Shown here: in pieces, positions 5,680 through 45,598 of the stretch
Layout of the letters: the number at the start of each line of letters is the position of its first letter
Position numbering within the stretch: the first letter of the stretch is position 1
DNA from: Bacillota bacterium
GTDB lineage: Bacteria; Bacillota; SHA-98; UBA4971
Reading direction: 5' to 3'
DNA length: 45,598 bases
Assembly (NCBI GenBank): GCA_012516125.1
Contig: JAAYXB010000016.1
Span: 1 to 45,598, forward strand
Made by a program: the position numbers and the translations under genes
The notes under the pieces: generated by a model
Database searches by the model: none
What the model saw: the letters and a program-made list of their open reading frames with translations, nothing else
Told to the model about the DNA's origin: nothing

Positions 5680-5851
5680 GGTCCGTTACAGCCTCCTTTA
5701 CCTTAGGTGCCTTTCGTTCGGCTGAACCCTGAAACCGTCAACCGGTCGGAACCCCTCGAGACCGCCGCGTCGCGTCCGCAAGCTCGCTAGCTCGACAGTG
5801 CTAGGCCTCACCCCCTTCGCACCCGACCGGGCTCACAAAAGCTGCGCCGCT

Positions 5852-5900
5852 CACTCTCTGAGTCACCGGCAACCCCTCCCAAAAGTCGGGAGCATTCCTT
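5852..5900 (-). promoter_or_regulatory. Conserved leader element, copy A
   Basis: This stretch lies 170-220 nt upstream of the binding-protein start and resembles 45496-45549 upstream of nadE, with about six mismatches over some 45 aligned bases plus small gaps. On the minus strand it can form a hairpin CTCCC-loop-GGGAG, then GGGTTGCCGGTGACTC, then a second hairpin with ACTC paired to GAGT. The length difference between the copies falls mainly in the loop of the second hairpin, as expected for a structured RNA. I do not recognise it as a known riboswitch class. Confidence 0.5.
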
Positions 5901-5909
5901 CAGCCTCCC

Positions 5910-7805
5910 CTAGCGGCCCATGCTCGGTGCATCGCCCGGTACGTACACCTCGATCTCCCACAGGGAGAACCCCCATGTGGTCCAGAGCGAGTGGCCGAAC
6001 TTCGTCCCGATGTCCTTCGGACGTTCATAGAGCAGAAGCTTCACGTATCTTGCTTCACGGGGAGCAAACTCGACAACCTCCCAGCCAGCACCGCTGGACG
6101 TCTTCTCAGCCACAGTCTCCCAGGCCGTCCCGTCCTTCGAGACCTGAACGGTGTACCTGGTTGCGCCAAGCTCCCAATGAAGGACCACAGAGCCTACGGT
6201 CTCCTTGCTGCCCAGGTCCACCTGGAACCACTCGGGCACCTTCTGCCATATCCGTGAGGCCCACCTCGTGCGCATGCTGCCGTCCACAGCGCTCTCTGGC
6301 CTGAACATCCCGTCCACCTCGGCCGTGGATGAGGCCGTCACCTTCGCCCGCAACGCAAGGTTCCGCAGGCGGGGCGGTGGTGCAGCCCTGCCCGGGATCG
6401 TGACCGCGACGACGGACCGCGATGGTAACCTCAGCCTAGCGTGCCCGTTCGTCACAACAGCATCGCTGATGCGGGCCGGCGGACCCCCGCCCGCGCCGAG
6501 AACCCAGACTTCTGCCCTGGGTCCACACGAGAAGCCTGCCACCCGCAGGTCCGCATACGCGTCTTCGGACGCCCTGTTCACTACAATGAGGTGAATGGTC
6601 CCGCGGGTAGAGTCGCCTTTCGCGGATGCGTGAACCACCACGCGGTTGTCGCTGGAGCTTGACCGCAGGTACACGTCGCCGAAATGGTCCTTGAAGAGCT
6701 GGAAGACGTGGTAGGTGGGATACGGCGCGTTCTCGGGGGTCGAGGTGATGATTCCGTAATCTCCCTGGCGCGGAGGATACACGTTGTGGAGGGCCCAGAA
6801 CCCCGCGGCGTCTACCCCGGCGCCCGCCATGGTCCCCAGGACATCCGCGAGCCACAGGGCGTTGACATGTGATGTGGTCTGGGGACCGGGAGCGTAGCTG
6901 ACCGAGTTGTACCCGCCGATGTGCACCTTGATTTCGTTCGCCCGGGCTGGCACCTCATCCTTCAACATCTTCCTGATGGCTGCCACATCCTGCGCGAGCC
7001 GGGGCGGGGTGGAAAGAAGATAGGTATCGTCCTCCTTCCTGGGGCTCTGAGGATACCAGTTGTGTACAACGAAATCTATGTAGCTCCCGGCGTCGCGGAG
7101 CACCCGGCGCGACCAGTCAGGCCGCGAGGGCGAGATGTTCGCCCCGACCTTTATGGACGGATCCTGGGCCTTCATGGCCCGGGCGAAGTGGCTAAATCTG
7201 GCAGCGTACGATCCGCCATCCACAAGGAAGTACTCCTCGTCTCCGACCTCCCAGTAGCGTACCCCGTAGCCCTTTACCCGGTTCGCGTAGCGTACCCATT
7301 CGGCGGCGAGGTCAGGCTTTTCGGTGTAGTTGACCGTAATCGATGGAGTCGCCCCGACGAGCTTGCAGAAGGTCATGAACTCATCGGTGTCCATGCGAAG
7401 CGGGGAGTTCGAAGGCGAGTTCCAGATGTAATCGTCGCCGTCACGACCGCCCGGGAAGCGGAGGAACCGGATCCCGGCGTCTTTGACCCGCCTTACCCCG
7501 ACCTGATCGAACGTGAGCTCCCAATTGTCGGCGGTACCGGGGAAAAGCTGCTCGTCCCAGCAGGCTGTGTTCACGCCGAAGATGAGCGGGCTAACCTTTG
7601 CGACCTCCGTAGCCCGGTCTACTGCTATGCTTACCGCGGCACCACTTCCTTGTGCCAGTGTGGTTATCATCACGGTTATCAGCCCGAACATCGCTACCAA
7701 CAGTATCGCCAGGAGGCACGAGGCGCCGCCACGAGGCAAGCGAGAGCCATCAGGAATCAGACTCCTGCCTCGTGGCGCCGCTAGTGGCCCCGATGACAGC
7801 ATCAT
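5910..7805 (-). CDS. Secreted clan GH-A glycosidase-like protein with CBM32-type domain
   Basis: About 631 residues from an ATG at 7805, which has GGGAGG 9 nt upstream. A longer GTG start at 7862 lacks such a site. A hydrophobic segment at about residues 28-50 is a signal anchor or signal peptide. The middle resembles alpha-L-arabinofuranosidase-like enzymes (GH51/GH39 type): RFLRFPGG, WEVGDEEYF with a possible acid/base Glu near residue 190, and VHNWYP. A beta-sandwich follows, then a discoidin-like F5/8 type C domain from about residue 490 (SAVDGSMRTRWAS, WFQVDLGS). Where the family normally has the nucleophile in an ITE-[YW]-N motif, this protein reads HIGGYNS near residue 297, with no Glu. 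It may be inactive or use another residue. The likely role is binding or cutting plant polysaccharide outside the inner membrane. Confidence 0.75.
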   Translation of the reverse strand: MMLSSGPLAAPRGRSLIPDGSRLPRGGASCLLAILLVAMFGLITVMITTLAQGSGAAVSIAVDRATEVAKVSPLIFGVNTACWDEQLFPGTADNWELTFDQVGVRRVKDAGIRFLRFPGGRDGDDYIWNSPSNSPLRMDTDEFMTFCKLVGATPSITVNYTEKPDLAAEWVRYANRVKGYGVRYWEVGDEEYFLVDGGSYAARFSHFARAMKAQDPSIKVGANISPSRPDWSRRVLRDAGSYIDFVVHNWYPQSPRKEDDTYLLSTPPRLAQDVAAIRKMLKDEVPARANEIKVHIGGYNSVSYAPGPQTTSHVNALWLADVLGTMAGAGVDAAGFWALHNVYPPRQGDYGIITSTPENAPYPTYHVFQLFKDHFGDVYLRSSSSDNRVVVHASAKGDSTRGTIHLIVVNRASEDAYADLRVAGFSCGPRAEVWVLGAGGGPPARISDAVVTNGHARLRLPSRSVVAVTIPGRAAPPPRLRNLALRAKVTASSTAEVDGMFRPESAVDGSMRTRWASRIWQKVPEWFQVDLGSKETVGSVVLHWELGATRYTVQVSKDGTAWETVAEKTSSGAGWEVVEFAPREARYVKLLLYERPKDIGTKFGHSLWTTWGFSLWEIEVYVPGDAPSMGR

Positions 7806-35438: not shown

Positions 35439-35590
35439 CTAATTACGAGGTCATTAGTTTTTTCTCGTTTTCCGAGGTCTTGGGTTGCCGGTGATTGCAC
35501 GAGGGGTGTCAGAATCCGGCCACTCGCCCAACGGGCCGGCTTCGAGTCATGTCACAAGCCAACACCAACCGCGACATTCTTGTGTATTGG

Positions 35591-45392: not shown

Positions 45393-45495
45393 TGCTCCTT
45401 GTACAGGGATACCCGGTGTCCGGTCCGGGTTCCCACTAAGTGGGGATGCATTAGTCCCCGCCTCATCTCCAGTAGTTACCGGGTCGCCAGTGCTG

Positions 45496-45549
45496 CACTC
45501 TCTCTTTGAGTCGCCGGCCAACCCGTCCCAAAGGTCGGAAGCGTTTCTG
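45496..45549 (-). promoter_or_regulatory. Conserved leader element, copy B
   Basis: Resembles 5852-5900, in the same orientation relative to the downstream minus-strand gene. Here it lies about 105-155 nt upstream of nadE. On the minus strand it has the TTCC-loop-GGGA hairpin, a GGGTTGGCCGGCGACTC linker and an ACTC/GAGT hairpin with a longer loop. A long inverted repeat GTCGGAAGC/GCTTCCGAC (45534-45587) joins it to sequence nearer the window edge. Confidence 0.5.
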
Positions 45550-45598
45550 GACTCCCAACTAGGAGAGGCAAACGCCCCGCTTCCGACAGGTCCCTGGC

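Follow-up and report, generated by a model that had tools for sequence, protein, structure and literature searches.

Two alignable sequences at positions 5852-5900 and 45496-45549 of contig JAAYXB010000016.1 (Bacillota bacterium, assembly GCA_012516125.1) are found upstream of the genes for a sugar-binding protein and NAD synthetase (nadE), respectively, which raises the question of whether they represent a new cis-regulatory RNA common to a sugar-importer operon and nadE or copies of a mobile repeat. Both possibilities came from a sequence-only reading of the window, i.e., the whole stretch of 45,598 nucleotides that was analyzed. We conclude that they are almost certainly copies of a non-autonomous miniature transposon (MITE) and not a gene switch.

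Related sequences in the window

The two sequences are present as described, and their similarity is far beyond chance, as judged by the E-values of searches with profiles made from intact copies of the element (Table 1). The families of both downstream genes, which are on the minus strand, are confirmed by Pfam, and so is the identity of codY (HTH_CodY), upstream of which a 13-mer, GGGTTGCCGGTGA, had been noticed to recur; this 13-mer occurs 2 times in the window, compared to 0.01 occurrences expected from shuffles. The extents first assigned to these sequences are, however, too short. The similarity over ~45 bases is real, but the nadE-side copy is a mutated but whole element of 126 bp that has a terminal inverted repeat at each end, and the codY-side 13-nt piece at 35482-35494 belongs to a fragment that runs on to 35543. 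The two small hairpins proposed for these sequences are parts of a palindrome spanning the whole element. Both copies occupy leader positions as stated, but the start of the 5852-5900 copy coincides with the TAG stop codon (5912-5910) of the gene before it, so that this copy could equally well be called a 3'-end insertion.

Table 1. Copies of the element in the window and their parts, with profile matches where a profile was used
Feature	Position	Strand	Basis
Complete but mutated short-form copy upstream of nadE, including flanking CT and AG	45436..45562	-	Short-form profile (E=7.6e-26, profile positions 5-126 of 126); own-genome BLAST
Right terminal inverted repeat of the nadE-side copy, TGCATCCCCACTTAG, well kept	45436..45450	-	Sequence; repeat defined from copies
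Left terminal inverted repeat of the nadE-side copy, decayed (CTAGTTGGGAGTCCA for CTAAGTGAGGGTGCA)	45548..45562	-	Sequence; profile alignment
Core palindrome GGGTTGgCCGGCG...CACTGGCGACCC, approximate span, part of the joined hairpins of the sequence-only reading	45485..45525	-	
Left-half fragment of the short form, starting at a CTAG whose TAG is the stop codon of the upstream 650-aa ORF	5848..5913	-	Short-form profile (match 5848-5909, E=3.2e-13, profile positions 5-66 of 126); sequence
Internal part of a long-form copy, located between codY and a divergent gene	35482..35543	+	Long-form profile (E=3e-15, profile positions 39-100 of 199)

Anatomy, copy number and taxonomic range

Intact copies of the element are found in two sizes, a short form of ~126 bp and a long form of 197-200 bp, with both ends common to the two. 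In both forms the ends are the inverted repeats CTAAGTGAGGGTGC...GCACCCTCACTTAG; the terminal inverted repeats AAGTGAGGGTGC and GCACCCTCACTT, about 14 bp in length, are a hallmark of MITEs. Copies are bounded as CT-AAGTGAGG...CCTCACTT-AG, outside which the flanks differ without relation between copies, and the sequence between CT and AG measures ~122 bp in the short form and 193-197 bp in the long form. The consensus consists of a small hairpin, CTCCCGACTTTTGGGAG, followed by the arms GGGTTGCCGGTG and CACCGGCAACCC, which enclose ACTCAAAGAGAGAGTGCAA in the short form and a longer structured segment in the long form. No gene is found inside the element.

A profile census of 1.56 Mb of the 3.24-Mb genome to which the window belongs (G000) identified 150 copies (82 in 801 kb and 68 in 760 kb), which extrapolates to ~310 copies in the whole genome, while the same search detected no copy when the first 801 kb were reversed. 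Terminal-repeat ends number 244 genome-wide, whereas the reversed pattern occurs 2 times. A BLAST search of the genome with its nadE-side copy returned at least 40 scored matches, and one with a long-form copy at least 40, with identities of ≥89% for all among the matches listed. High copy number, short length and lack of a transposase gene are thus combined in this element, as in MITEs. Since several contigs start or stop inside the long form, the assembly has probably been broken by the element; near-identical copies probably cause such breaks, and the true copy number may exceed the count. Many G000 contigs, including C5, C14, C16, C27, C48, C57, C59, C64, C65, C71 and C74, start or end in or beside a copy, within their first or last ~140 bases.

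In a collection of 85,000 species, an exact 22-base signature of the element is found only in three uncultured Bacillota MAGs, MAG-64, Yes71-24 and UBA6811, and among 20 relatives the occurrence in many copies is restricted to the same genus. A related subfamily of ~207 bp with the ends CTAAGTATGGCGCCA is abundant in G002, and relatives of this subfamily are present in all six genomes of the genus. Related subfamilies have the same core arms and internal hairpins but sequences that partly differ. This retention of hairpin structure exceeds what a minimal MITE needs and is counted against a plain MITE reading.

Insertion scars and the search for a transposase

Twelve occupied sites of G000 were joined in silico, as if the element were absent, and searched in three relatives. 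In G004, the closest relative, a single uninterrupted CTAG is found at the L110 and L007 sites (98-99% identity), and the L132 site is contiguous. The L003 site is intact in G001, where its CTAG is also uninterrupted, and the L116 and L119 sites are contiguous but mutated in relatives. Three of the 12 tested insertions (L006, L009 and L137) are occupied in G004 too, hence the element has undergone turnover. As filled sites read CTA-element-TAG and empty ones CTAG, TA is duplicated, which is the target duplication of a MITE. The exceptional sites aTAt and gTAc (L079, L107 and L065) also center on TA. Duplication of TA at a TA target, with CTAG preferred, is what elements of the IS630/Tc1-mariner type leave behind. 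With its terminal inverted repeats, its TA duplication opposite empty sites in relatives and its ~300 copies, the mobile-repeat alternative of the earlier reading is borne out. The tetranucleotide CTAG itself is ~six-fold under-represented in G000, with 475 occurrences in 801 kb compared to ~2,750 expected from base composition.

A parental insertion sequence was sought with the DDE_3 Pfam model, the NCBIfam IS630 model and a scan for paired terminal repeats 0.5-3.5 kb apart, in assemblies that are incomplete and with the paired-end scan covering part of the sequence. No mobilizing transposase was found, which also counts against the MITE reading: the IS630-family matches in the six draft genomes of the genus are fragmentary and score under the curated NCBIfam cut-off, and the terminal repeats of the element do not convincingly flank any of them. 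The sole pair of terminal repeats at a distance of 1.5 kb (L069, 1509-3015) was rejected as the parent, as it encloses a non-transposase ORF. This segment looks like a composite unit without a transposase: on one side of a 412-aa ORF, which by eye is peptidase-like, there is a left half-copy, and on the other a damaged long copy in opposite placement. From the scar alone, we infer that the putative enzyme belonged to the IS630/Tc1-mariner group.

Placement relative to genes

The positions of copies relative to genes were determined with gene calls made by a simple codon-usage model, for which the window served as the training set; distances to starts are therefore approximate. Only two of the 150 copies are inside predicted genes. 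In tandem gene pairs of G000, the copy starts within 30 nt of the upstream stop codon in 58 of 108 cases and ends within 30 nt of the downstream start codon in 13 of 108; further copies were thus found, but they are not kept to leaders as a cis-regulatory RNA would require. The same lean towards stops over starts is observed in G004 (19 vs 7) and G002 (10 vs 4). Copy density in divergent gaps, which contain leaders only, is below that in tandem gaps in all four samples, and in convergent gaps, which are without leaders, it is comparable to or above the tandem density in three samples and below it in the remaining one. A preference for leaders was therefore rejected on both gene-context class and distances to starts and stops.

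The association with gene 3' ends in three genomes favors another possibility, in which the element is a mobile repeat and some copies have been recruited as RNA elements, either as 3'-end stabilizers or terminators or as a domesticated nadE leader; we regard such recruitment as unlikely. Of the 34 copies with both ends readable, 10 form the stop codon of a neighboring gene, which is always TAA. In 801 kb, 239 CTAG sites lie outside both the elements and the interiors of genes, and 39 of these are TAG stop codons. Given that CTAG is rare and that this share of its non-coding sites are stops, stop-codon formation by the copies is probably passive, and the CTAG target together with purging from genes explains the 3'-end placement at least partly (39/239 vs 10/34). 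Recruitment also gains some support from the sense orientation of copies in tandem gene pairs of the first G000 sample (43:14, p=0.00015, post hoc), but this bias was not replicated in the second G000 sample (29:22, one-sided p=0.20), is weaker in G004 (28:16) and is absent in G002 (14:15). With the fresh sample failing to confirm it, a sense-strand bias is not claimed. Moreover, a scan of one intact copy revealed neither a terminator-like nor a promoter-like signal. The hairpin architecture common to the subfamilies and the frequent occupancy of the nadE leader described below also speak for recruitment.

Orthologous loci

The orthologues of the sugar-binding protein in G001, G002 and G005 (91-94% protein identity) are without the element, and the leader downstream of the element remains alignable. 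This remaining leader (5680-5836, minus strand) shares 78-89% identity, over stretches in which the gene start is contained, with its counterparts in three further species of the genus and has no Rfam match; it could contain a genuine cis element that is unrelated to the repeat.

At nadE, the G004 leader (95% protein identity) does not align with the window copy. In four of five species (that of the window, G004, G001 and G002; L143, L144 and L146), the nadE leader contains a member of the superfamily, which likewise counts against a plain MITE reading, and the members in G004, G001 and G002 are themselves repeats. The members in G001 and G002 lie at a CTAG-type site that is apparently uninterrupted in G005, and they may represent one old shared insertion. 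The recurrent occupancy of this leader could reflect an old shared insertion, a site tolerant of insertions or, less likely, a useful site. Conservation in the leaders of orthologous genes, as expected of a riboswitch, is found at neither locus, given that the binding-protein orthologues are without the element and that the nadE copy is unalignable between G000 and G004.

Structure, covariation and Rfam

These loci bear directly on the proposal that the element is a structured cis-regulatory RNA, i.e., a riboswitch-like leader common to the sugar-importer operon and nadE, which we consider highly improbable. The two window copies are indeed upstream of genes, and their folds are stable. As the earlier reading had claimed, no known riboswitch is recognizable: the Rfam comparison gave no match at the gathering threshold in the window and nothing credible at a relaxed threshold, which argues against the proposal. 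The covariation that was to be looked for is weak. In 32 short-form copies, pairing is maintained in 94.1% of cells vs 93.6% after shuffling, two-sided changes occur in 8 cells vs 3.7 expected in shuffles, and the 12-pair core stem is without any compensatory change. Copies that decay from a palindromic ancestor show this pattern. When subfamilies are compared, some inner-hairpin pairs do change on both arms, e.g., from U-A to C-G and from G-C to C-G, which is in favor of an RNA; because conversion between the arms of palindromic DNA can produce the same two-arm changes, they are no proof of RNA function. The binding-protein orthologues lacking the element despite an otherwise conserved leader, the unalignable nadE leader of G004, the preference of copies for stops and avoidance of starts, and the exact insertion scars are all contrary to this proposal. 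As a general explanation, a cis-regulatory RNA is already refuted by the empty sites and the placement of copies.

Origin of the copies

Returning to the MITE, we propose that the element was cut and pasted in trans by an IS630/Tc1-mariner-type transposase that recognized its terminal repeats and whose gene lies elsewhere or has been lost. Selection may then have purged insertions from coding sequences, so that those at gene ends and in intergenic regions would have remained. Since TAG is part of CTAG and the first bases of the element are (T)AAGTGA, a TAG stop codon that is hit by the element would be replaced by a new TAA stop, and the insertion could therefore be tolerated. The effect on nadE or the sugar importer, if any, would be incidental and would come from the transcribed hairpin; nothing found here points to a dedicated switch. 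A broader version of the recruitment considered above, which we likewise regard as unlikely, is that of a genus-wide superfamily of structured MITEs, of which some hairpin copies have been retained for their action on mRNA 3' ends or as a domesticated nadE leader. A palindromic repeat of the REP/BIME or IS200/IS605 type, mobilized in single-stranded form by a RAYT-like tyrosine transposase, would also be palindromic, intergenic, of high copy number and near gene 3' ends, but it is very hard to reconcile with the terminal inverted repeats and the duplicated TA at the scar, as to our knowledge elements of the IS200/IS605 type lack terminal inverted repeats and do not duplicate their target.

These results remove a false riboswitch candidate and replace it with a repeat family defined by its consensus, boundaries, target, copy number and taxonomic range, which annotators of these MAGs can mask and which probably explains many contig breaks in this assembly. 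The filled and empty pairs between sister species would permit a direct test of the effect of a MITE insertion on the neighboring transcript.

Comparison with known systems

Duplication of TA upon insertion is the rule for IS630/Tc1-mariner elements (PMC2170065), and the title of a study cited there (Tenzen and Ohtsubo, 1991) gives TA within CTAG as the preference of IS630. The element described here is like them in both the duplicated TA and, as far as that title tells, the preference for CTAG; it differs in encoding no transposase, and its membership is deduced from the scar alone.

The element is a new family of a well-known kind, which in size and behavior is most like RUP, Correia and ERIC (PMC2229807; PMC3049150), a relation in sequence being undemonstrated. 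The repeat unit of pneumococcus (RUP) is an intergenic MITE of about 107 bp with ~108 copies, TA ends and IS630-Spn1-like ends (PMC2229807). Both RUP and the element are short and intergenic, have TA ends and occur in many copies, but the element is found in another host, has two size forms, is G+C-rich and is without a matching insertion sequence in the genomes searched. Correia elements, or NEMIS, of Neisseria exist as 107- and 155-bp forms that differ by an internal segment, carry terminal inverted repeats and TA termini and are transcribed into stem-loops, and their filled and empty sites have been compared (PMC2229807). Compared by features and not by sequence, the element differs from them in targeting CTAG and in having forms of about 126 and 200 bp, and shares with them the two size forms, the terminal inverted repeats, the TA at the termini and the filled and empty sites. 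ERIC, or RU-1, of enterobacteria is a 127-bp intergenic element with TA ends and target duplication (PMC2229807; PMC2759123). Although its terminal repeat is listed as 7 bp vs about 14 bp here, ERIC, again compared by features and not by sequence, resembles the element in size, intergenic placement, TA ends and target duplication.
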